64,000 nt of DNA from Chloroflexi bacterium AL-N1 (GCA_013122435.1 WYDT01000008.1:248001-312000); one strand, 5' to 3'. Positions 7,798 through 21,175 are shown, counted from the stretch's first letter. The notes: a model not told the origin generated them from the sequence alone. Numbers and translations: made by a program.

Positions 7798-8643
7798 ATG
7801 AAGAGTCAAGCATCTCTCAACAACAGCATACTTTCACATCACGGTGTTACTCCGGCAAGTCCGCTACCCCTGTACTATCAGATCAAACAGCATATACACG
7901 ACTGTATTGACCAAGGGAGTCTTGCTTTGGGCTCCATGATCCCATCAGAGCGTGATTTATGTGATTTGTATCAAGTCAGTCGCTCAACATTACGCCAGGC
8001 TGTACAAGAACTGATCAATGAAGGGCTGTTAGAGCGTCGGCGTGGTGTCGGGACGTATGTGGCACAACCCAAAATTCGCCACCACCTCGGGAGTTTCTCA
8101 GGCTTTAGCGAACGCATGAAACGGGCCGGGCATGCGCCTTCTACACATCTCATTGAGCATAGCATATTCGAAGACGAAGCTGATTCTGAGATCCATGCCA
8201 AACTGCATGTAGCGGCCAGTGCACCACTCCTGCGAATGGTACGTCTGCGGCTTGCAGACGAAGAACCGATCATGCTGGAGACCGTGTATCTCCCGATTAC
8301 GCGATTGCCAGGTCTCATGCCTGAACAATTGGCCAATCAATCACTCTATCATGTACTTCACACTCATTACAATATTGTCATCTGCAGGCTCTGTGAGACA
8401 TTAGAGCCTGTTGTCCTGACGCCATCTGACGCACAACTACTTGGCACAGAGCCTGGTTTGCCAGCCATGTTAACGACGATTACTACCTTTAATCAAAACA
8501 ATCAGCCAACTGAATACACCCTGTCACTTGTACGCGGAGATCGTTGCCAATATTTTATTGAAATGCAGACAAACGAACACCAAAATACCAGCCATGCGTA
8601 TTTACAACAAAACCAATTTGAGTTTGCTTTATCGACATCCTGA
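7798..8643 (+). CDS. GntR/HutC-family transcriptional regulator with UTRA domain
   Basis: The product of 281 residues has an N-terminal winged helix-turn-helix (about residues 20-88: PLYYQIKQHI, MIPSERDLCDLYQVSRSTLR, GVGTYVAQPKI) and a UTRA effector domain (about 105-260) typical of the HutC/NagR subfamily. Relatives respond to amino-sugar phosphates such as GlcN-6-P or GlcNAc-6-P. It heads module A of the amino-sugar region and has a candidate operator at its own promoter. The start gives a short extra N-terminus before the HTH; a later start is possible. Confidence 0.9.
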   Translation: MKSQASLNNSILSHHGVTPASPLPLYYQIKQHIHDCIDQGSLALGSMIPSERDLCDLYQVSRSTLRQAVQELINEGLLERRRGVGTYVAQPKIRHHLGSFSGFSERMKRAGHAPSTHLIEHSIFEDEADSEIHAKLHVAASAPLLRMVRLRLADEEPIMLETVYLPITRLPGLMPEQLANQSLYHVLHTHYNIVICRLCETLEPVVLTPSDAQLLGTEPGLPAMLTTITTFNQNNQPTEYTLSLVRGDRCQYFIEMQTNEHQNTSHAYLQQNQFEFALSTS

Positions 8644-8803
8644 ATTTACGGGAGGTACCACATCGCACAATCACACGTTTTAATCATTGATATGGAGCAC
8701 GTGGGCGTGTTATGAAGTTGATAAGTGAAACAGACTTTACTATTTACACGGCTTCCAGTGACCCAGAGTGACGTCCTGGAAACGAGAAGAAAAGGGGCCT
8801 TCT

Positions 8804-11251
8804 ATGCATTTCTTACACCTTTCTCATGTACGTATCATTGGAGCGACGATCCTTTTACTCAGTCTTGTAGCAGCAGTAGTCCAACCCATGGGCCTTCGTG
8901 CACAGACCGCAAACGATATCACGATTACCGCCGCTGATGGAACCGTCGAAATTATCGATGCGATTGACCCACCGAACCGCACGGCTGGTCTTCTGGCGCT
9001 CTATACACCCGATTTTGGTACCTCAACGCGGACCAATCAATTTGGTGCCGAGGCTATTCTCATCGAAACCGATATACCCAATCAGTATCGAGTGACTGAT
9101 GTGTGCACCGTATTTGATGCCCAGGCTGATCCACCGCGCTGCTCAAATCCGGGTGATAATCCGATACCTGAAAACGGTGCCGTCCTCTCAGCATCACCCG
9201 AAGGCAATCCCGATGTACGGCTGTTTATTCGTGATCATATTGCAGTGGATGATGTAGTGACCATTACCATTCCGACACGACGTGAAGTTTCACGAACACT
9301 GGATGTTATTGATCCGACACCGGAAAACAACCCTGATGGCGTCGATCCAGGGACCGGAACATGTTTCCCAGGGTGTCGTGGAGCAAGCCAGTTCATTCTG
9401 TACACACCCGACTTTGGCGAACAGACAGGGACGAACGATTTTGGTTTTGAGGTTGCCGTTGTTGACGGGCGTGTCGTCTCTCGCGGTGGCAACAACTCGA
9501 CCATTCCAGAAGACGGCTTTATCTTGAGTGGTCACGGTGGCGTAGGTAGCTGGCTTTCAGCCAATACCATTCTTGGTGCTATTGTCGAGGTGGATGAGCT
9601 TGAAGTCACCATTGTGATCGACTCGAGTTCATATATCTTCACCGCACAAACTGTCATCAATACCGCACAGGATGCCTTTGCAACCGCACAGGACGTGTGT
9701 CTGGCTGTCCCATTTGGTCAGGTACAGACCGCTATCGGCGAAGCACAGACACTCCTTGCTGACGCACAGGCAGCCCTGGAGAATGGCAACGACCAGGAAG
9801 CAGTCGATCTCGCTGTCCAATCCGAGCGACGTGCCGAAATTGCACGATATCGCACAATTGAGTCACGTGTGGCTGAAGCACGCGGTATCTGGATTCGACC
9901 AACCGAAACGACGCGTGAAACCATCGCGATCACACTGGATCAAATGGCAGAAGCGGGATACAACCTGGTCTATCTGGAAACCTTCTATCAAGGATACACC
10001 ATTTTCCCCAGCGAAACGGCTGAACGTTATGGCATCGTAGCGCAACGTCCACAATTTGAAGGCATCGATCCCCTCGAAATCTGGATTGATGAGGCACACA
10101 AACGAGATATCGAAGTACATGCGTGGGTCGAGAATTTCTTTGTCGGGGTGGAACAGGAAGGTGGTGCTGGACCAATTCTAGCAGTCTATCCTGAATGGGC
10201 TGCCGTTGAATGGGAAGATGTAGGCAAAGAGGGGCCACAACCATCGGCTGCCGAATCAGGCTACTACTTCCTCGATGCGGCCATCCCTGAAGCACGCCAA
10301 TATGTCCTTGAGACCTACACGGAAATACTGGATCGCTATGAAGTTGATGGTATCCATCTCGACTATATCCGCTATCCCGTCAGCCTTCCACGAGAGCGCA
10401 GCTTCTCATACAGCGACTTTAGCCGTGCGGCTTTTGAGGAAGTAGCTGGAGTGGACCCCTACACCATCACACCAGAAGATAACCCTGACAAATGGGAACA
10501 ATGGATCGAGTGGCGCCAAAACAATATCACCAGTTTCGTCAAAGAAGTACGTGATGCGATTGATACGACCCGCGCCGACACAGCCCTCTCAGCCGCAGTC
10601 TTCCCTGATGAGTTTGACTCACAGATCCGCAAAATGCAAAAATGGCCTGATTGGGTCGATGCTGGCTGGATGGACTTCATGGCTGGTATGTCATTTGGAC
10701 GTTCAGCCGACTCCGTGGCAGTAGACACGAACGCCATGCTCGACATCGTGGACGGCAAGACCCTCATTTACACGGGTGTGTATGCGCCGTTCTTAAGTTT
10801 GGCTCCTGGTACGCTGGTTGATCAGATTGAAGCTGTCCGTGGCGCAGGAGCACATGGTGTTTCAGTCTTTGCATGGGGTCAAGTCAGCAATCCATACATT
10901 GAAGCCCAAAACGAAGGTCCGTACCGACTCACGGCAGACGCACCACATAGCGAACCCAAAACAGCCGTTACGAGTGGGGTGAACCATCTCCTCAGTCGTA
11001 TTGAGACCGTCTACAAAACTAATGATTGTATGGGAGCCAAAACAGCTCAACCGCTCACTATTCAACTCAACGGTGCTGTGAGTGCACTGGAGAATGATCC
11101 AAATCTCAACACCGCTATCACACGACTAAATCTGGCCGATTTTGTGCTCCGTGTCAACGATGGAAAGACCAATAAAGAACTCCGGACACGGCTCCGAAGT
11201 GAAATCGAAAATTATCGTGGCATCTTGGAGTACACACGGGATCGTCAGTAA
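8804..11251 (+). CDS. Exported GHL10 (DUF187) glycoside hydrolase-like protein with duplicated N-terminal domain
   Basis: The start ATG at 8804 follows AAGGGG and begins a signal peptide (IIGATILLLSLVAAVV, cleavage near LRAQT). Residues about 40-145 and 165-275 are two copies of a beta domain marked by LYTPDFG...TNxFGxE. A helical stretch follows (about 290-370), then the GHL10 barrel (about 375-690): RGIWIRPTET, NLVYLETFYQGYT, EVHAWVENFF and VDGIHLDYIRYP. The last 110 residues look helical. GHL10 proteins include E. coli DigH, which cuts denuded peptidoglycan glycans, so an extracellular glycan-cutting role is inferred. It precedes the module A importer. Confidence 0.85.
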   Translation: MHFLHLSHVRIIGATILLLSLVAAVVQPMGLRAQTANDITITAADGTVEIIDAIDPPNRTAGLLALYTPDFGTSTRTNQFGAEAILIETDIPNQYRVTDVCTVFDAQADPPRCSNPGDNPIPENGAVLSASPEGNPDVRLFIRDHIAVDDVVTITIPTRREVSRTLDVIDPTPENNPDGVDPGTGTCFPGCRGASQFILYTPDFGEQTGTNDFGFEVAVVDGRVVSRGGNNSTIPEDGFILSGHGGVGSWLSANTILGAIVEVDELEVTIVIDSSSYIFTAQTVINTAQDAFATAQDVCLAVPFGQVQTAIGEAQTLLADAQAALENGNDQEAVDLAVQSERRAEIARYRTIESRVAEARGIWIRPTETTRETIAITLDQMAEAGYNLVYLETFYQGYTIFPSETAERYGIVAQRPQFEGIDPLEIWIDEAHKRDIEVHAWVENFFVGVEQEGGAGPILAVYPEWAAVEWEDVGKEGPQPSAAESGYYFLDAAIPEARQYVLETYTEILDRYEVDGIHLDYIRYPVSLPRERSFSYSDFSRAAFEEVAGVDPYTITPEDNPDKWEQWIEWRQNNITSFVKEVRDAIDTTRADTALSAAVFPDEFDSQIRKMQKWPDWVDAGWMDFMAGMSFGRSADSVAVDTNAMLDIVDGKTLIYTGVYAPFLSLAPGTLVDQIEAVRGAGAHGVSVFAWGQVSNPYIEAQNEGPYRLTADAPHSEPKTAVTSGVNHLLSRIETVYKTNDCMGAKTAQPLTIQLNGAVSALENDPNLNTAITRLNLADFVLRVNDGKTNKELRTRLRSEIENYRGILEYTRDRQ

Positions 11252-11357
11252 GATCTTTTACAGGGACTTAGGCACTTGAATGTTTCGGATAGTTGTGGTA
11301 TTAGTGCTGCAACACATATATTTCTAGTGATATCCAACGACATCAGATGACTATGGT

Positions 11358-11389
11358 GATGCGTGGCCCAAGTTATGCGGCCACGTATC
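11358..11389 (+). promoter_or_regulatory. Hairpin in the leader of the first solute-binding protein gene
   Basis: GATGCGTGGCC (11358-11368) can pair with GGCCACGTATC (11379-11389), 11 pairs including one G-U, with a 10-base loop. It lies about 40 bases before the start codon. No T run follows, so a simple terminator is less likely than a leader structure or an operator. Confidence 0.45.
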
Positions 11390-11430
11390 ATCACATCTGC
11401 GTCTGTTGGCTAACACGAAGGAGGAAGTCC

Positions 11431-12804
11431 ATGCGACGATTTCGCCTCATCGCGCTTCTCACGCTTGTCATACTGCTCGCGCAAGTTATTGCAGCATGTG
11501 GAAGTACTGCCGAAGCACCAACAACGGAGGGAGATACAACGGAAACGGAAGCTGAGCAACCTGCAACAGAAGCTGAACCAGCAGCAGAAACAGATGCCAA
11601 TACTGAAGAGGCAGAAGCAGAGTCGGCAGGTGAACCCACAACCCTTAAATTCTGGACCATCTCACTTAAGCCAACATTCGACGATTATGTCAATGGCATG
11701 ATTGCCACCTACGAAGAAGCCAACCCTGGCGTCACAATTGAGTGGGTCGATATTCCTGGCGATCAGATTGAGCAACAACTGTTGACCGCTATCGCCGGTG
11801 GTGATGTCCCTGATGTGGTGAACCTGAATACCGATCTCACACTCCAGGTGTCGGCAACTAACCCAGATATACTCGTGAACACCACTGAGGCCGTGCCATC
11901 TGAAGTGCGGGAACAGTATTTCGAAGGACTATGGAACTCCACAACCTACGGGGAAGCCACGTATGGTATTCCATGGTATGCTACCGTACGTGTTGTACTT
12001 TACAACAAGCAAATCTTTGAAGAAGCCGGTGTGACAGAACCACCCCAGACCTACGACGATTTGGTATCCATTGCAGAGTCTGTCAAGGAAACGAGCGACA
12101 AGTGGGGCTATGCACCCAACATTAACCTGGTCGAAAGCTTCTTGATGGCTGGTGTTCCACTAGTGAATGAAGATCGCACTGCTGCTGCCTTTAACACACC
12201 TGAGGGCATTGCTGTTGGTCAATACTATATTGATTTGAAGGATCGGGGACTGATTCCCGAAGATATTCTGGCCAAAGGCTTTCAGGGCGAACTGCAACTC
12301 TACAAAGAAGGCAGTCTGGCAATGCAGTTAGCTGGTGCTTCGTTGTTGAGACAAATTGAGAATGATGCGCCAGAGGTGTATGCGAATACAGATGTTGCAC
12401 CACATCCAACCCGCGAAGCCAATGTACTCCCGGTCGCACTGATGCATCTCGTTATCCCAGCACAATCAGAATCTGTTGAACAAGCCACCGACTTTGCCTT
12501 GTTTGTGACCAATGCAGAAAATCAGCTTGAGTTAGCGAAAAACTCTGTCACTGTACCGTCAGTGATTACGGCAACCGAAGATGAATTCTTCCAACAAGAA
12601 GACACACTCGATGCAAAAGCACGCAAGGTCATGGCAGAAGAGTTAGCCATCGCACAGGATCCATTTCTCGGATTACCGGAATGGGGCCGATTGGAGAAAG
12701 CACTCCGCGATGAGTACACTGCTGCCTGGGCTGGTACAAAAACGACGGAGGAAGCGATGAACGACGCAGCAGAAACGTGGAATAGTATATTATCGGAACA
12801 GTAA
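11431..12804 (+). CDS. ABC sugar importer solute-binding lipoprotein (CUT1 family), module A
   Basis: The ATG at 11431 is preceded by AAGGAGG. The 457-residue product starts with a lipoprotein signal ending in the lipobox VIAAC, followed by a Glu/Ala/Thr-rich linker of about 40 residues and an extracellular solute-binding fold (TTLKFWTISL, NPGVTIEWVD, GGDVPDVVNL, GIPWYATVRVVLYNKQIFEEAG). This is the CUT1 layout for oligosaccharide and amino-sugar uptake. Two permeases follow. The specific ligand cannot be read; context suggests an amino sugar from cell-wall polymers. Confidence 0.9.
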   Translation: MRRFRLIALLTLVILLAQVIAACGSTAEAPTTEGDTTETEAEQPATEAEPAAETDANTEEAEAESAGEPTTLKFWTISLKPTFDDYVNGMIATYEEANPGVTIEWVDIPGDQIEQQLLTAIAGGDVPDVVNLNTDLTLQVSATNPDILVNTTEAVPSEVREQYFEGLWNSTTYGEATYGIPWYATVRVVLYNKQIFEEAGVTEPPQTYDDLVSIAESVKETSDKWGYAPNINLVESFLMAGVPLVNEDRTAAAFNTPEGIAVGQYYIDLKDRGLIPEDILAKGFQGELQLYKEGSLAMQLAGASLLRQIENDAPEVYANTDVAPHPTREANVLPVALMHLVIPAQSESVEQATDFALFVTNAENQLELAKNSVTVPSVITATEDEFFQQEDTLDAKARKVMAEELAIAQDPFLGLPEWGRLEKALRDEYTAAWAGTKTTEEAMNDAAETWNSILSEQ

Positions 12805-12917: not shown

Positions 12918-13862
12918 ATGCGCGAGACAGCACATATTCCAAGTACAACCACTAACAAGCAATCAAAACGCTCCGGCAGCCGTATCAGACATATCGTTGT
13001 AGGTTACCTCTTTCTGTTACCTGCCATGATCGTCTTACTGGTTTTTCTGCTCTATCCAGTCACCTATGGTGCCGTGCTTTCGTTTTACGATTATACTATT
13101 CTCTCACCTCCCGAATTCACTGGATTTGAGAACTTTCAAAGGCTGTGGAATGATAGTATCTTTCACACATCTCTGCTCCATTCCGTACAGTATCTTCTGG
13201 TTGTTCCGATTATTCAGATAGTCTCATTTGGATTGGCTATGCTGGTCAATCACAAGATCCCTGGCATGGCCTTTTTTCGAGCGGCATTCTATGTGCCTGT
13301 TATCACTGCAGCTGTTGTCGTCGCATTGGCATGGCAATGGATCTTCGATCTGGAGTACGGCTTACTCAATGCATGGCTGCAAGATTTACGTATTATCAGT
13401 GAGCCTGTTGCCTGGCTTGACCAACCAGCCATCGCCCTCTGGTCCATTATGTTTGTCACGTTCTGGCGTGGACTAGGCTTCTATATGGTCATCTATCTCG
13501 CTGGATTACAGGGGATTCCCCGTGAGCTGGAAGAGGCTGCCGCAATGGACGGTGTCGGTCGCTGGCAACGCCTCTGGTATATCACCATTCCGTTGATGAT
13601 GCCAACGATTGCGTTTTGCTCAATCTGGTCATCAATTGCCGCGCTCAAAGTCTTTGATGAAGTACTGGTGATGAGCCGGCCCAATCCTGGTGGCCCGGCC
13701 AATTCCACCATGGTCGTGAACCTCTTGATGTATCTTACGGCATTTGATGATTTCGATTTTGGCTATGCCGCTGCTCAAGGGCTGGTATTGGCGGGTATTA
13801 TTATGATCTTTACCTTACTGAATCTTCGCTTTTTCCGCAGTGGACTGGAGCGTATTGGATGA
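12918..13862 (+). CDS. ABC sugar importer permease (MalF-like), module A
   Basis: The 314-residue protein has about six membrane helices and the EAA loop that contacts the ATPase (EEAAAMDGVGRWQRLWYITI, residues about 210-229). It belongs to the CUT1 inner-membrane permeases. The stop overlaps the next permease start by four bases (ATGA). No ATPase gene occurs in this region, so the pair probably uses a shared MsmX/UgpC-type ATPase encoded elsewhere. Confidence 0.92.
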   Translation: MRETAHIPSTTTNKQSKRSGSRIRHIVVGYLFLLPAMIVLLVFLLYPVTYGAVLSFYDYTILSPPEFTGFENFQRLWNDSIFHTSLLHSVQYLLVVPIIQIVSFGLAMLVNHKIPGMAFFRAAFYVPVITAAVVVALAWQWIFDLEYGLLNAWLQDLRIISEPVAWLDQPAIALWSIMFVTFWRGLGFYMVIYLAGLQGIPRELEEAAAMDGVGRWQRLWYITIPLMMPTIAFCSIWSSIAALKVFDEVLVMSRPNPGGPANSTMVVNLLMYLTAFDDFDFGYAAAQGLVLAGIIMIFTLLNLRFFRSGLERIG

Positions 13863-14716
13863 ATGCAATTCGTTTAACCCAATCAAAACAGCTCCGGGAT
13901 CGCACAACGAAAATTGTGATCTACATATTGCTGATTGCAGCCGCGCTATTTACAACCGGCCCATTTTTATGGATGCTTTCGACCGCATTAAAAACCAGCG
14001 GAGGCGTGTTTACCCGCCCACCACAACTGCTACCAATCCCACCAACACTAATCAATTTTGTCGAAGTATGGAATGTCGTGCCAATGGGGCGTTGGGCCAT
14101 CAACAGTGTTTCCATTTCAGTCATCGGGACAGCGGGGCAAATCATCATTAATGCCATGGCTGGTTATGCACTGGCGCGGTTTCGTCTCCCTGGCTCACGC
14201 TTCATCTTGTTCTCTCTACTGGTCATGTACATGCTGCCTACAACGACGAACTTTCTGGTCAACTTCCTGACCATTCGTAGCCTAGGCCTCACAAACACAT
14301 TAGTAGCAGTGTTTCTACCCTCACTCGCTTCAATTTTTGGCATTTTTCTGATGCGCCAGGCATTTCTCAATGTCCCCAATGATCTTGAGGAGTCGGCCCG
14401 CATCGATGGTGCCAATGAATGGGATATCTTCTGGCGTGTCATGCTTCCACTGGTGATACCATCACTTGCGACCATGGGTATTTTTAGTTTTGTAGGTCTG
14501 TGGAATGAATTCTTCTGGCCACTCATCGTCCTGACAGGCGATGATACGCTCTTCCCCCTTGCCCTCGGCATACGCTATCTCAATAGTGCTTTTGTTGCCA
14601 ATACACGCTGGGTTATGGCTGGAGGAGTGATCACAATGATACCAACCCTAATCGTGTTTATCGCTGCACAACGCTACTTTATTAGTGGTGCTATGGCTGG
14701 CGCTGTCAAGGGGTAA
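13859..14716 (+). CDS. ABC sugar importer permease (MalG-like), module A
   Basis: This 285-residue protein is the second CUT1 permease, with six predicted helices and the EAA loop EESARIDGANEWDIFWRVML. The ending GAMAGAVKG is the usual C-terminus of this family. It is translationally coupled to the first permease and is followed after six bases by the ROK kinase gene, which supports co-uptake and phosphorylation of the same sugar. Confidence 0.92.
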   Translation: MNAIRLTQSKQLRDRTTKIVIYILLIAAALFTTGPFLWMLSTALKTSGGVFTRPPQLLPIPPTLINFVEVWNVVPMGRWAINSVSISVIGTAGQIIINAMAGYALARFRLPGSRFILFSLLVMYMLPTTTNFLVNFLTIRSLGLTNTLVAVFLPSLASIFGIFLMRQAFLNVPNDLEESARIDGANEWDIFWRVMLPLVIPSLATMGIFSFVGLWNEFFWPLIVLTGDDTLFPLALGIRYLNSAFVANTRWVMAGGVITMIPTLIVFIAAQRYFISGAMAGAVKG

Positions 14717-14722
14717 ACATTG

Positions 14723-15679
14723 ATGGGAACAAGCGAACAGAACCGTACGTTGGGCATTGACATTGGGGGCACCAAAACCGCTGCTGCACTGGTTGATCTG
14801 CACGGCAACGTGACGAACTATCAATACACGGCAACTCCTGCACTCGACGGACCCGATGCTGTACTGGCCGCCGCAATCAGCCTTGGTCAGCGCGTGCTCG
14901 CCACAACATCCAACACAACTGCCCTGCCCATTGCAGTGGGTATTGGAACGGCTGGACAGGTCGATTGTGATCATGGCATCATCACCTGTGCGACGGACGC
15001 CCTCCCAGACTGGCAAGGGACCACGATTCGTCAGGCCATGCAAAACGCTTTTGACCTGCCCGCTGTGGTGGATAACGATGTCAATACTATGGCCTTTGGT
15101 GAGATGCACCATGGCGCTGGTCGGGCATTCCACGATGTGCTCTACGTCAGCGTGGGCACTGGCATCGGTGGCGCACTGGTCTACAACAAACAGGTGCAGC
15201 ATGGCGCCACGTGGACGGCTGGCGAGCTTGGCAATCTGGTCATTCGCTATGATATAGCACACCAGGCCAACGATGCACGCGCCGGATGTCTTGAAGCATT
15301 TACTTCTGGCCCCGCCATGGTCCAGCACTATGCGCGTCTGGCACAAGTGCAGGAGCCACCCGATTTGCAGGCAGTCGTCGCACACGCATATGCTGGTGAC
15401 GACCACGCACGCCAGACCATTACAGAAGGTGGATACACCCTTGGCATGGTCATCGGAAGCCTGTTGTGTGTGCTCAACCCCGAAGCACTGATCGTTGGTG
15501 GGGGCGTAAGCGAAATCGGCCCGCTCTGGTGGCAACCCTTTGAGCAGGCGCTGCGTGCCAACCCACTGCCGGGACCGGCCAGAGTGCCTGTGCAACCCGC
15601 GCAACTGGGTCGTTATGCTGTCGTCGCAGGCGCTGGATGTATGGCATTCCACCACATCCACCAGCTACCCACGGCATAA
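14723..15679 (+). CDS. ROK-family sugar kinase lacking the usual zinc motif
   Basis: The ATG at 14723 follows AAGGGG by nine bases; a TTG one codon earlier is less likely. The 318-residue protein has the ROK ATP-binding start LGIDIGGTKTAAAL, DNDVNTMAFGE (catalytic aspartate region) and VGTGIGGAL. ROK members include GlcNAc, ManNAc and glucose kinases. The typical CxCGxxGCLE zinc site is reduced here to ANDARAGCLE, so the two first cysteines are missing. With NanE four genes downstream, ManNAc or a related 2-acetamido sugar is the most attractive substrate, but this is an inference. Confidence 0.88.
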   Translation: MGTSEQNRTLGIDIGGTKTAAALVDLHGNVTNYQYTATPALDGPDAVLAAAISLGQRVLATTSNTTALPIAVGIGTAGQVDCDHGIITCATDALPDWQGTTIRQAMQNAFDLPAVVDNDVNTMAFGEMHHGAGRAFHDVLYVSVGTGIGGALVYNKQVQHGATWTAGELGNLVIRYDIAHQANDARAGCLEAFTSGPAMVQHYARLAQVQEPPDLQAVVAHAYAGDDHARQTITEGGYTLGMVIGSLLCVLNPEALIVGGGVSEIGPLWWQPFEQALRANPLPGPARVPVQPAQLGRYAVVAGAGCMAFHHIHQLPTA

Positions 15680-15700
15680 GGTTTTGAGAAGGAGCATTCT

Positions 15701-17203
15701 ATGCGTATCGGTCTTATCCCACTTGACGAACGCCCCGTCAACACACGCTACCCAGCGATGATTGCTGATATTGCTGGCGTTCAACTCGTGGTTCCTCCAT
15801 GTGAACTCCTGAGTGTTTTTCGCACGCCTGCACCATGCACACAACTTATTACATGGTTACACGACATGGCCCAACAGTTAGACGCATTGATCGTCTCATT
15901 TGAAATGTTGGGGTATGGTGGTTTGATTGCATCACGCATCGGACACGAGAGCGCCAGGGTCATCCTTGAGCGTATCGACACCTTGCGAACGATCAAGCAA
16001 CGCTGCCCTGAGCTACCGATACTGGGCTTCAACGTGATTACGCGTGTGTCCAACGCCAACGTTGCTATCGAAGAACCAACATACTGGGGGACCTACGGAA
16101 CGCGTTTCTACCAACTCTCACAACTACTCGACCGCAAAGAACAGGGGCAGAACGTCCAAACAACATTACAGCAACTCTATGATGAATTCCCCCCCCACCA
16201 GGTCCGTGATTTTGTACAACGACGTTTACGCAATCACAAGATCAATCTGACTGCGCTGAACCTATTGTCCGATCAGGTACTCGATCTGTTGGTACTTAGT
16301 TCCGACGATACCAGCCCATATGGCTTACCCTCGCACGAAAAACGCTGGCTTGTGAGTTGGGCCAATAGTCTCAACATCAATGACCGATTACTGATGTACC
16401 CTGGAGCAGACGAGGTGGGATGTGCATTACTTGCACGCCTGATCAATGCCAATGTCCAATACCGACCTAAGATTGCACCACTGTATGCAGTGCCAGAGGG
16501 TGCAGACGTGATTGCAGCATATGAGGATGTCCCCATTCATACCACTGTGATACGCCAGATGTGCGCCGTCGGTGCGGTTCTCGCTGAAGAGGATGAGGCC
16601 GATAGCCTGATGGTGATCAACCCTCCACTCCCACACCGCGAAGAGTGGAGCGCAGTACACACCGAGCAAGACCAGCAGCATCGTAGGCCCCACCTCACCG
16701 CCATGGCCCAAAGCATCCAGACATATCAGGAGCACCAAAAGTCCGTATGTGTTGCCGATGTCGCCTATCCCAATGGTGCTGATCCAATTTTCTTTGAAGC
16801 ACTACGCACAACCATCGCGCTGCCAGCACTGACCGCATATGGCGGATGGAACACGGCAGGAAATACCATCGGTACGGTATTGGCTCAGGGCTGTGCTGCA
16901 CAACAGGCACACACTCCCGCACAACACGCGGCGCAACAACGGTTTCTGTTGCATCGTTACATCGAAGATTGGGGCTATCAACATCTGGTTCGCAGGCAAG
17001 CGCGTGCTCGTATCAAAGAACACACTGACTTCGATGAACCAACCACCACAACCATGGAAGCAACTACGGAATGGATTGAACAACGCTTAAATATGCTCGT
17101 GGATGATCTCCCAGGATTTGTGGGTGCGTGGTGTGTGAAACGGGTATCCCTGCCCTGGAATCGTCTGTTTGAAATTGATTTCGAGCTAGAATCGTTGAGC
17201 TGA
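15701..17203 (+). CDS. DUF4127 family protein
   Basis: The ATG follows AAGGAG by six bases. The 500-residue product opens with MRIGLIPLDERPVNTRYP, which is the family hallmark, and continues with SFEMLGYGGLIASR and VLSSDDTSPYGLPSHEK. There is no signal peptide or membrane helix, so it is cytoplasmic. The biochemical function of the family is not established to my knowledge. Conserved acidic and histidine motifs suggest an enzyme. Its place between a sugar kinase and an FAD oxidoreductase, in a run ending with NanE, points to amino-sugar or sugar-acid metabolism. Confidence 0.85.
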   Translation: MRIGLIPLDERPVNTRYPAMIADIAGVQLVVPPCELLSVFRTPAPCTQLITWLHDMAQQLDALIVSFEMLGYGGLIASRIGHESARVILERIDTLRTIKQRCPELPILGFNVITRVSNANVAIEEPTYWGTYGTRFYQLSQLLDRKEQGQNVQTTLQQLYDEFPPHQVRDFVQRRLRNHKINLTALNLLSDQVLDLLVLSSDDTSPYGLPSHEKRWLVSWANSLNINDRLLMYPGADEVGCALLARLINANVQYRPKIAPLYAVPEGADVIAAYEDVPIHTTVIRQMCAVGAVLAEEDEADSLMVINPPLPHREEWSAVHTEQDQQHRRPHLTAMAQSIQTYQEHQKSVCVADVAYPNGADPIFFEALRTTIALPALTAYGGWNTAGNTIGTVLAQGCAAQQAHTPAQHAAQQRFLLHRYIEDWGYQHLVRRQARARIKEHTDFDEPTTTTMEATTEWIEQRLNMLVDDLPGFVGAWCVKRVSLPWNRLFEIDFELESLS

Positions 17204-17214
17204 AGGTATAAAAC

Positions 17215-19116
17215 ATGTCTGCTGAACAGAGCTATGAATGTGATATAGCGATTATTGGGGGCGGTCTGGGCGGTGTCGCAGCGGCACTCGCGGCTGCTGA
17301 GGCTGGTACCCACGTTGTGTTAAGTGAACCAACGGATTGGGTTGGCGGACAAGTCACCAGTCAAGGCGTTTCAGCCCTCGACGAGCATCAATATATCGAG
17401 ACCTTTGGCGGCACCCGATCATACTATCGGTTTCGTGAGAGCATTCGCCACTTCTACTACAAACAACATACTATCACCCCGGGCTCCTGTACCGCACCAC
17501 TCAATCCAGGCAACGGCTGGGTCAGTCGGCTGTGTTTTGAACCACGTGTTGCTTTAGACGTGTTAGAAGCCATGCTGGCACCGTATGTCGAGGCAGGCCG
17601 CTTGACCATTCTGCTTCAACACCATCCGATTGCTGCTCATGTTGAGCAAGATCGTATTGCAGAAGTTGTCTTAGCTGATGAGCACCAGCAGCGGGTGCAT
17701 GTGCGCGCTACGTATGTCCTTGATGCCACCGAGACGGGCGATCTCCTGTTGCTGACAGGCATACCGTATGTCATCGGTGCCGAAGCGATTGATGATACCG
17801 GTGAGCCAAACGCGAGTCGCAAGGGGCCTCGTCCGCAAGAGGTGCAATCGTTTACCTACGGATTCGCTGTAGAATACTGCCCTGGTGAGAGTCACATTAT
17901 CACCAAACCAGCGGGCTACGAACATTTCCGTGACACACAGCCCTATACACTGGTATTACAGGGGCATAGTCAAGAATCACGCCCATTCAACATGTTTGTC
18001 GATGGGCCAACCGGATTGCCCCCGTTCTGGACGTATCGACGGCTGTACGATAGCCAACAACTTGACTCTCACCAAAAAACTAATGATCTTGCATTGATCA
18101 ACTGGGCCAGTAACGACTATGATCGCGCTTCCCTGATCGATCAGCCAGAGAGCACTCAACGCCGGATACACGATGAAGCCAAAAGATTGTCGCTCGGCTT
18201 TCTCTACTGGCTCCAGACCGAAGCACCACGAGATGATGGTCATGGTTATGGCTACCCTGAATTACGCCTGCGTCCAGAAGTGATGGGAACACTGGATGGC
18301 TTGAGCAAATATCCCTACATACGTGAGTCGCGTCGGATTGTTCCACACAAACGCATTATGGAGCAGGACATCATCGCACACCATGGTGCTGGCGCACGAG
18401 CCACCCATTTTGATGATACAATCGGGGTCGGATGGTACGCCATCGATCTGCATCCCTGTGTTGACAATCCCCGCACCATATATGCTCCAACACGACCATT
18501 TCAAATCCCACTTGGTGCATTGCTCCCCCAACACCTGACCAATCTGGTGGCCGCATGCAAAAACATCGGCACAACCCATATCACCAATGGCTCATATCGA
18601 GTCCACCCGGTTGAGTGGAATATCGGCGAATCGGCAGGAGCACTGGCGGCGTTCTGTTGCAAAACAGGCCATGCACCATCCACTGTCTGGTCATTACCAA
18701 CCATGCTGCATCAATTGCAGTATCAATTGCTTCAACGTGGGATTCCGCTTGCCTGGACAACCGATGTGCCACTGACACATGAATTGTTTGTATCTACACA
18801 GCTTTTGATGACATTCGGGTCGCTACTACCGGAAAGCCCACGTTATCACTCGCTAGCACTGGACCCACATCAACACATATCGGTAGGTGAAGTGTGCCAG
18901 ATGGTACAGGCAAGTCTACGAGGCGTACGCGGAGAAACAAACTGGTCACCATCCCCACATAGTGACACATCCAACGACCGGGCAGAACGCGCTGATATTG
19001 AACACATCTTTGCTCAGGCCCATATAGCATATCATCCTTTCAGCGACACACCGAATTGGGGGGAAGTCTGTGAGGCATTATGGCCCTTCTTACAACAAAC
19101 ATGTACACGTCGTTAA
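17215..19116 (+). CDS. FAD-dependent oxidoreductase (FAD_oxidored family)
   Basis: The 633-residue product begins with a Rossmann dinucleotide fold ([20 protein letters not shown]) followed by [18 protein letters not shown], typical of the FAD_oxidored (PF12831-like) group. An ending such as [19 protein letters not shown] forms the second FAD-contact region. No signal peptide is seen. The electron acceptor and substrate are unknown. Neighbours (importer, ROK kinase, DUF4127, NanE) make a 2-acetamido sugar or derived polyol or acid a reasonable guess. The start has AAGGT seven bases upstream. Confidence 0.85.
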
Positions 19117-19139
19117 GCAACACTCATAACAAGGATACA

Positions 19140-19838
19140 ATGGACACGCATATCTCTCAACATCCGACAATCAAACAACTGCAGGGCGGCTTGATCGTCT
19201 CCTGTCAGGCATTAGCTGATGAGCCGTTGTTTAGTGCCCAGATCATGGCGCGTATGGCACAGGCAGCCTGGCAGGGGGGCGCTGTTGGCATCCGTGCAAA
19301 CGGGCCAGACGACATTCGAGCTATTCGTACAACCGTTAAGCTTCCGCTGATCGGTCTCTACAAAGACGGCGATAGTGGTGTATACATTACACCGCATAGC
19401 AGCCATGTTCGTGCAGTTGCTACTGCAGGAGCCGACATCATTGCCCTCGACAGCACCCAGCGAACCCGACCGGGCGGCGAGAGTCTCTCACACCTCCTTG
19501 ATGTGATTCATCAGGAATGTCATAAACTGGCCCTTGCAGACATCTCCACACTGGAAGAAGGCATTGCAGCGGAAGAAAGTGGCGCTGATATCGTGTCAAC
19601 CACCCTATCTGGTTATACACCATACAGCCCTCAACTCGACGGACCCGATTTTGAACTCGTGTACAAGCTGGCAAAACGGCTACAGGTACCCATCATAGCA
19701 GAGGGACGAATCAGTACTCCCGAGGAGGTCGAGCGAGCCTTTGATGCGGGCGCGTTTGCCGTAGTGGTCGGCAGTGCCATTACGCGCCCACAATGGATTA
19801 CAAAACAATTTGTCGCAGCGACGCACCGCCGCTCTTAG
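19140..19838 (+). CDS. nanE: N-acetylmannosamine-6-phosphate 2-epimerase
   Basis: The 232-residue TIM-barrel protein carries the NanE signatures [37 protein letters not shown] (with the catalytic lysine) and [12 protein letters not shown] (with the catalytic glutamate). It would convert ManNAc-6-P to GlcNAc-6-P, feeding NagA in module B. The start at 19140 is chosen because AAGGA precedes it and the upstream ATG lies inside the previous gene. Its stop overlaps, tail to tail, the stop of the amidase gene on the other strand (19835-19838). No sialic acid lyase (NanA) is seen in the window, so the ManNAc source is probably not sialic acid. Confidence 0.92.
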
Positions 19839-21175
19839 CGCACCGCAAGGATACGCGACAAGACTCGCGCCAGCGTCGATCTTTCAACAACTGGCACCAA
19901 CTCTGCGGCATCCTCACGGATCTGCGGCAGATACTGGTACAGGTTATCGCCCGGACACGCAGTCGCCACACAGCTATCCGGGTGGCCCCAATCACGATGA
20001 CCGCTGAGACGGTAGTTGTCGATCTGTGGACGGCAATCTGCGGTTGGGAATGGATAGGTATGTTGTTCACGCAGATCAAAGTCGTGGAAGACCGACTCAA
20101 TGGCTGCCAACACCGTCGCACTGTAACGTGCTTCTAGCGTTGGTTCGCCACCAGGGTAAGGCACATCAGGCGCATTTGGCTGGAACTGACCCAGGAAGCT
20201 AATACCACAGTTGTGGCTATTGTAGCGGAATACGTGGCCCCCAACCGTACTATCACCACCATCACGGCCTTCGTACACGTTACCGAACTGGTCGATCAGG
20301 AAATGATAGCCGATATCGCCCCAACCCAGCGTTATCGTGTGATAGTACCATATGGCACGTACCGTTGCTAACGGATTCTCAGGATTATTGGCACCAGCCG
20401 TATGGTGAATCGTGACAAACTCAAAAGGAAACTCACCAGACAAAGGTGGCCAGTAGAGCGGCGAATCGGGCGGGATTACGTCCGGATTCCAACCCAGCGG
20501 TCCATCACGTGGAATAAACTTTGTCAAAGGAGGATCGGTTTGTGTGATCGTAAACGGTATACCTGGTCCCCGTTGTGCGAGATCGTCGAGCGTAGGTGAA
20601 TCGAGCGCGTCAAGTAGTGTTGCCGTTACACGACGCACCGTTGGCGAAAGTTGGGGGTTTTCCGTACTCAACATGATGCGATACTGCATGGAGCCAGCCC
20701 GCCCAACCTCAACGGCATCCGTGAAGGTCTCAGCGGTCGTCACATCATGGTCATCACGTTGCAGAACATGACCAACCGGAGTCCAGTTGGTCCATTCGCG
20801 ACCATCCAGGCTACTACGAATCTCAACGGCCAGCATTGTAGCAGGAGGCACATCGGCAATCCACCGCATCCCCACCATGTTAAAGTCATTGGAGGCATCA
20901 TAAACATCGGACACAAAGGTGCGTTGGCGTTCAAACGTTCCGTTAGCGTTCTGCTCCAGTTGGAAATTACCATCCAGAGATCGGGCACTGACTTCAGCGG
21001 TGTTTTCATTATCACGGGGTGCAGTATGCCACTCATGGGCACGCACACGCGATGCAGCAGCGACAGAATGTGGCTGGTTCAAGAGTGGAACACCCAGACC
21101 GAAGAGCGTACTCGCGGCAATCGAACTCTTCAAAAAGGTACGACGGCTAGAAGACAAACGGCGATGACGTGTCAT
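19835..21175 (-). CDS. Tat-exported N-acetylmuramoyl-L-alanine amidase (PGRP/amidase_2 domain)
   Basis: The 446-residue protein starts with a twin-arginine signal ([10 protein letters not shown] followed by a hydrophobic stretch). Residues about 60-185 are a beta-rich domain with [11 protein letters not shown], and residues about 245-425 are a PGRP-type amidase with zinc-ligand regions [18 protein letters not shown] and [11 protein letters not shown]. It would split the MurNAc-L-alanine amide bond outside the membrane and leave denuded glycan strands. It diverges from the GntR gene of module B, and the operator at 21257 lies between the two starts, so both may be controlled by that regulator. 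Confidence 0.92.

Follow-up and report, generated by a model that had tools for sequence, protein, structure and literature searches.

To our knowledge, the breakdown of sialic acid is the only well-known way in which bacteria obtain N-acetylmannosamine (ManNAc) as food. ManNAc is also a building block of the linkage units of teichoic acids and of wall polymers that anchor S-layers. In the MurP-MupG-MurQ system of Staphylococcus aureus, imported N-acetylmuramic acid (MurNAc)-6-phosphate-N-acetylglucosamine (GlcNAc) is cleaved by MupG, which had until then been only a DUF871 protein (PMC6262408). Here, we analyzed a window of 64,000 nucleotides from Chloroflexi bacterium AL-N1 (WYDT01000008.1:248001-312000; all positions refer to this window), in which genes for a ROK kinase, a DUF4127 protein, an FAD_oxidored flavoprotein, and the ManNAc-6-phosphate (ManNAc-6-P) 2-epimerase NanE follow one another. 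The genes around DUF4127 are ordinary sugar genes, while the DUF4127 protein itself is recurrent, uncharacterised, and firmly tied to ManNAc. At the level of the pathway, we consider it probable that the gene set serves a salvage of ManNAc that does not start from standard sialate breakdown.

Four tightly packed genes end in NanE

The ROK kinase (14723..15679, plus strand; PF00480, 3.5e-46; a TTG start at 14720 is also possible), the DUF4127 protein (15701..17203, plus strand; PF13552, 1.2e-147, profile positions 1-488 of 489), the FAD_oxidored flavoprotein (17215..19116, plus strand; PF12831, 7.8e-94), and NanE (19140..19838, plus strand; PF04131, 1.5e-59) are encoded head-to-tail on one strand behind a MalFG-type importer. 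The open reading frame of NanE was listed from 19080, but the likelier start is the ATG at 19140 behind AAGGA; with this start, the successive genes from the importer gene to NanE are separated by 3, 21, 11, and 23 bp. Reading frames, family matches, and gaps agree with a previous sequence-only reading of this locus, which had described four tightly spaced genes after a sugar importer with NanE as the last. None of the four proteins has an obvious export signal. The identity of NanE is supported by its score against the NCBIfam model PRK01130 (298 bits over a cut-off of 189) and by its match to the solved NanE 4utt (2.4e-71). K75 and E188, presumably the catalytic residues, are invariant among 14 DUF4127-linked NanE proteins.

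The host genome is of the Roseiflexaceae type (Chloroflexota), measures 8.16 Mb, and carries a single DUF4127 copy. We found no curated match to the sialic acid lyase NanA in this genome, the best score against a nanA model being 84 bits versus a cut-off of 382. This absence confirms the earlier observation that a sialic acid lyase is missing, and with it the conclusion that ManNAc-6-P is not supplied by the standard sialate route. The N-acylglucosamine 2-epimerase AGE (PF07221) was not found in the host genome either.

DUF4127 is linked to ManNAc epimerases

We compared 80 DUF4127 loci from public genomes, the best 80 of at least 517, and counted neighbours by tblastn within 8 kb of DUF4127; genes at GC-rich loci were picked with a codon-position scorer. 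A ManNAc epimerase was present in 47 of the 80 loci, distributed over five phyla, with NanE in 39, AGE in 8, and both in none. NanE acts on ManNAc-6-P and AGE on the free sugar; the two enzymes differ in fold and are not homologous. On a tree of 60 DUF4127 proteins, the epimerase state of the loci that have either enzyme changes at least three times, namely in the Chloroploca group, in a Jiangella locus, and in an Armatimonadota locus. Non-homologous enzymes for one sugar substitute for each other beside DUF4127, and this linkage is the strongest result for the tie between DUF4127 and ManNAc. It also places DUF4127 in sugar metabolism; a role unrelated to sugars had been named previously as an outcome that would speak against the proposed pathway. 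In 10 loci (Chloroflexota, Devosia), the DUF4127 and epimerase genes overlap by 4 bases.

The association extends to whole genomes. In a sample of 301 Chloroflexota genomes (NanE counted at E < 1e-30, AGE at E < 1e-20), DUF4127 occurred in 11, true NanE in 9, AGE in 23, and either epimerase in 31. NanE or AGE was present in 10 of the 11 DUF4127 genomes compared to 31 of 301 overall (hypergeometric 3e-10, uncorrected for kinship, several of the 11 being congeners).

A protein of 220 aa that is assigned to no Pfam family takes the place of NanE after the FAD enzyme in a further locus (L104:14150-14809) and has orthologues in L110, L111, L116, and L118. It shows weak matches to phosphate-binding TIM-barrel families and may represent a third kind of epimerase; homology to NanE is unsupported (hhalign probability of 13.5% for the Nonomuraea and Jiangella proteins), and we make no claim on it. 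Lone DUF4127 genes of the Roseiflexus type (L047, L048, L049, L051, L055, L090) adjoin HhH-GPD glycosylase, CoA-ligase-like, and thioredoxin-like genes.

The gene set recurs in other classes and phyla

In addition to the epimerases, the most frequent neighbours in the 80 loci were ROK proteins (38), ABC permeases (36), PF12831 flavoproteins (23), and GntR regulators (16), followed by Gfo/Idh oxidoreductases (12) and, more rarely, glycoside hydrolases of the families GH38 (7), GHL10 (4), and GH84 (3). The same gene order was found in Anaerolineae and Actinomycetota, and partial sets in Armatimonadota, Bacillota, Deinococcota, and Devosia. Thus, the order of substrate-binding protein, two permeases, ROK, DUF4127, FAD enzyme, and NanE is found again in an Anaerolineae locus (L061). 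An actinobacterial Egibacteraceae locus (L115) has the order of the window with a 50% identical GHL10 gene in front and GH38 behind. A Phytoactinopolyspora locus (L106) combines substrate-binding protein, permeases, DUF4127, FAD enzyme, and NanE with two GHL10 genes (GHL10 49% identical). Such conservation of the order beyond one class and one phylum means that the four genes are not together by chance; the recurrence that the sequence-only reading had called for as a check is thereby established.

Smaller versions exist as well. Armatimonadota have three-gene runs of NanE, ROK, and DUF4127, which puts DUF4127 in the position of NanA. Annotated plasmids of Priestia megaterium, Carnobacterium, and Deinococcus also bear versions of the module. 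The operon on Carnobacterium pCAR50 consists of NanE, a HAD phosphatase, DUF4127, an enzyme IIC (EIIC) component of the lactose/cellobiose/diacetylchitobiose family, and an RpiR regulator, and an unannotated Enterococcus faecalis plasmid copy resembles it according to a comparison of open reading frames. The Priestia megaterium plasmid (L129:8846-18326) carries GHL10, ABC importer, FAD enzyme, GH38, esterase, DUF4127, ROK, ManA, and NanE genes, its ROK protein being of the fructokinase type. The acetyl-esterase-like protein adjoins DUF4127 in Priestia and in L103.

Several loci from Anaerolineae and related bacteria (L059, L063, L068, L074, L075, L077, L079, L081-L083, L120) have a Dpp-like peptide-type ABC transporter upstream of DUF4127 instead of the MalFG importer, some of them together with a PhyH-type dioxygenase. 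Neighbours of 285 aa in Bacillota that had been considered as SIS/NagB proteins proved to be RpiR regulators.

DUF4127 has a confidently predicted structure without a solved counterpart

Searches for DUF4127, PF13552, or IPR025394 in the literature returned no paper, and no sequence relatives were found in the PDB. A Pfam scan of the protein identified PF13552 alone and no DUF871. The AlphaFold (AF2) model is of high confidence (predicted local distance difference test (pLDDT) 96.9, predicted template modelling score (pTM) 0.95). A fold search of the PDB gave no convincing match (best E 5e-4, template modelling score (TM) 0.17/0.25, query-normalised at most ~0.25), and the only match was to a viral DUF4127-like model. 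The structure prediction suggested previously therefore yielded a confident model, but no PDB match from which a function can be read.

Among 60 DUF4127 proteins, the residues D9, R11, R79, R115, E125, R175, D203, D237, E238, E275, D353, N358, N384, N388, D423, and R431 are invariant or nearly so. In the model, the conserved acids and arginines mostly lie directly after beta-strands; active-site residues of alpha/beta enzymes typically follow beta-strands. Stand-alone relatives of 569 aa with ~24% identity are encoded beside contractile-tail genes on IMG/VR contigs (L142-L145, e.g. L143:2830-4539); their motifs are partly altered, with PDADGLG versus PGADEVG, and NGAD is missing.

The kinase and the flavoprotein

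The ROK protein of the window keeps the catalytic ND (VDNDVN), and its PDB matches are glucokinases and ManNAc kinases. It stays below the cut-offs of the NanK models (91 bits versus 450 and 101 versus 283). Not all NanK proteins require zinc, so the protein remains a candidate ManNAc kinase despite the missing zinc motif. Several other DUF4127-linked ROK proteins also lack ExGH and the zinc cysteines; ExGY or ExGS is found instead in such proteins, which may form a specificity subgroup. In the Chloroploca loci with AGE, the ROK protein has ~400 aa, and the orthologue checked (L026) carries an N-terminal MarR-like helix-turn-helix domain, which by its domains makes it a repressor.

The FAD_oxidored protein matches PF12831 over its full length, with an N-terminal GxGxxG motif at residue 13. 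The flavoproteins near DUF4127 belong to the subfamily of the window in 19 loci and to a shorter subfamily in 4, and homologues with 43-58% identity lie beside DUF4127 in 17 loci. Its fold matches are of the fumarate reductase, geranylgeranyl reductase, and ketosteroid dehydrogenase types; these are generic and all of low TM, so the reaction is not readable from the fold. All four GHL10 loci have the FAD enzyme (4/4; Fisher p 0.006), whereas the association of GH38 with it across DUF4127 loci was not significant. As 57 of the 80 loci lack the FAD enzyme, it is not essential to the core. Moreover, the tree of DUF4127 proteins requires at least nine switches between presence and absence of the FAD enzyme, and one genus (g8) has it without DUF4127, in loci whose neighbours gave no functional clue. 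Although often present, the FAD enzyme is a dispensable accessory; it may serve to process a modified or anhydro-type end of the substrate.

The module lies within a murein salvage cluster

The four genes are enclosed by a 28-kb cluster for the salvage of murein and amino sugars (7.8-35.8 kb; 7798-35767), so that murein salvage genes lie on both sides of the module, a context absent from the sequence-only reading. The cluster comprises GHL10 genes, ABC importers, and GntR/UTRA regulators in two copies each, along with NagZ/GH3, NamZ, MurQ, a NagK-like kinase, a SIS protein, NagA, AnmK, and an amidase. NagZ, NamZ, MurQ, and the NagK-like kinase were named by family models, and the SIS protein, NagA, and AnmK by inspection of translations. 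As a whole, the cluster uses up wall glycans, with GlcNAc-6-phosphate (GlcNAc-6-P) as the end product.

Upstream of the importer, a GntR/UTRA regulator (7798..8643, plus strand; PF00392 and PF07702) is likely to control the module, and a GntR gene also adjoins this set of genes in L061, L064, L076, and L106. In the window, the regulator is followed by GHL10 (8768..11251, plus strand; PF02638, Pfam 2.3e-28), putatively a secreted glycan hydrolase, the N-terminus of which is hydrophobic. The importer consists of a substrate-binding protein (11347..12804, plus strand), with an orthologous position in L056, L061, L064, L106, and L115, and of MalF-like (12918..13862, plus strand) and MalG-like (13859..14716, plus strand) permeases, both of which recur in other DUF4127 loci. 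A Tat-type amidase (19835-21175, minus strand) adjoins the module on its other side, and NagA and the SIS-type deaminase-like protein sit 13 kb downstream. The only PDB match of the window GHL10 is to Cwp19; we take DigH of Escherichia coli to be a member of the same family. Cwp19 of Clostridioides difficile is a lytic transglycosylase (PMC6016235), and DigH is a denuded-glycan hydrolase (PMC12288456).

A possible route for ManNAc salvage

The above results are compatible with a pathway in which the secreted GHL10 enzyme would trim a wall polymer and the ABC importer would take up a di- or oligosaccharide. The cytosolic DUF4127 protein would then free ManNAc or ManNAc-6-P, hydrolysis of a ManNAc glycoside being the most likely reaction. 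Phosphorylation of ManNAc by the ROK kinase would give ManNAc-6-P, which NanE would turn into GlcNAc-6-P; NagA and the SIS-type deaminase-like protein could pass this product on to central metabolism. In related versions, AGE acting on free ManNAc would replace the kinase and NanE, or a phosphotransferase system (PTS) would bring the sugar in already phosphorylated. The FAD enzyme may deal with an extra feature of some substrates, outside the core. We give even chances to the view that the module catabolises a ManNAc-containing saccharide other than sialic acid, with DUF4127 as the releasing enzyme. A role of DUF4127 as a putative ManNAc-releasing glycosidase, argued from gene position, is at best as probable as that and perhaps slightly less so. 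The disaccharide PTS of the Carnobacterium and Enterococcus operons calls for an enzyme that cleaves the sugar in the cytosol; as no other is listed there, DUF4127 is the candidate. More tentatively, DUF4127 may be the founding member of an enzyme family of novel fold that removes beta-linked ManNAc or ManNAc-6-P from the saccharides of wall polymers, providing sialate-independent ManNAc salvage in many phyla.

The location of the module within the murein salvage cluster favours a wall source of ManNAc. The ManNAc probably comes from beta-ManNAc-containing wall polymers of Gram-positive bacteria, either the linkage unit of teichoic acid or secondary wall polymers of the S-layer type. The former contains ManNAc-b1,4-GlcNAc (PMC7086022), and the repeat of the secondary wall polymer of Paenibacillus alvei consists of GlcNAc and 4,6-pyruvyl-ManNAc (PMC6030368); each would fit an importer, a kinase, and NanE. 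The earlier suggestion of a wall polymer is therefore plausible given the GHL10, NagZ, NamZ, MurQ, AnmK, and NagA homologues of the cluster, with the teichoic acid linkage unit as one of several candidate polymers. GH38, ManA, and the fructokinase-type ROK of the Priestia cluster suggest mannose beside ManNAc in some substrates.

Several observations weigh against release of ManNAc by DUF4127. Hydrolysis lacks structural support because the fold matches nothing solved, and other ManNAc-generating reactions or a sialate-like lyase fit the same gene context. The ROK protein has ELGN where ExGH is expected and lacks the zinc cysteines (CxCG). The sample of 80 loci is biased toward relatives of the window, as the best of at least 517 were taken, and 33 of the 80 have no epimerase within 8 kb, although some contigs are short. 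In one genome with DUF4127 (G026), both AGE and a full NanE are missing, and the Roseiflexus copies are truly isolated from epimerases; their genomes encode AGE elsewhere, 59-62% identical to linked AGE, as well as the FAD enzyme elsewhere.

The isolated Roseiflexus copies could mean that the genes are only loosely associated within sugar loci and do not form one pathway, but the order conserved across phyla, the 4-base overlaps, and the genome-wide co-occurrence contradict such an accident, which we regard as highly improbable. If DUF4127 acts in the pathway, it might strip a decoration such as a pyruvate ketal or an acyl group, or handle the other half of the saccharide, rather than release ManNAc. 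The pyruvylated ManNAc of secondary wall polymers (PMC6030368) and the adjoining acetyl-esterase-like protein would suit this role, and GH38, GH84, or GH3 of some loci could cleave instead; yet the minimal operons contain no other cleaving enzyme, and DUF4127 and the epimerase are constant where the glycosidases differ between loci, which makes this role rather unlikely.

The trios of NanE, ROK, and DUF4127 parallel nanE-nanK-nanA, and with NanA absent DUF4127 could be its substitute, a new aldolase in a sialate pathway whose products from a nonulosonic (sialic-like) acid would be ManNAc and pyruvate. MalFG-type importers are able to carry sialic acid, which is in line with such a lyase. However, the Lac/Cel/chitobiose-type EIIC version and the GH38, GHL10, GH84, and NagZ neighbours indicate neutral hexosamine saccharides, no sialidase is among the recurrent neighbours, and the host genome has weak BNR_2 matches only; we judge the lyase unlikely. 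The FAD enzyme might also oxidise a ring hydroxyl (e.g. at C3) to enable elimination or hydration by DUF4127, with loss of the stereochemistry at C2 yielding ManNAc and hence a need for the epimerase. Its proximity to DUF4127 across phyla, including the Priestia and Deinococcus plasmids, its constant company with GHL10, and the Gfo/Idh oxidoreductases argue for such a redox-assisted cleavage, but its absence from most loci and from minimal operons, its repeated changes on the tree, and its occurrence without DUF4127 render it quite unlikely. The pathway idea of the sequence-only reading is largely borne out. We obtained no evidence for the oxidation or epimerisation step that it had assigned to DUF4127 and the FAD enzyme; NanE or AGE already epimerises. 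Release of ManNAc by DUF4127 remains the reading that we prefer. If it is true, it would fill a gap in wall-polymer turnover, add an enzyme family, and give DUF4127, annotated as unknown in many phyla, its first function. In any case, a widespread protein fixed beside ManNAc epimerases is a concrete functional lead for a family without a known role.

Comparison with known systems

A search of the literature for "N-acetylmannosaminidase" returned no paper. Like NanA-NanK-NanE sialate catabolism, the window has a ROK kinase and NanE, leading from ManNAc to GlcNAc-6-P, in an operon with a sugar importer; unlike it, it has DUF4127 in the position of NanA, and GHL10, GH38, and GH84 take the place of sialidases. 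AGE adjoins DUF4127 as NanE does, but in the Chloroploca, Jiangella, and Armatimonadota loci and with another fold and a free-sugar substrate. The 28-kb cluster around the module also contains homologues of the whole NagZ-NamZ-MurQ-AnmK murein salvage route, with GlcNAc-6-P as the shared end product, although that route acts on GlcNAc and MurNAc and none of its enzymes makes or uses ManNAc. Among enzymes acting on peptidoglycan glycans, Cwp19 and DigH, the former is matched by the window GHL10, which differs by its 827 aa and extra domains. MurP-MupG-MurQ of S. aureus concerns DUF871 and MurNAc instead of DUF4127 and ManNAc, and the window has an ABC importer and a kinase, so the likeness is one of operon logic only: the Carnobacterium and Enterococcus operons equally combine a DUF protein with a disaccharide PTS, a downstream amino-sugar-phosphate enzyme, and an RpiR/MurR-type regulator.

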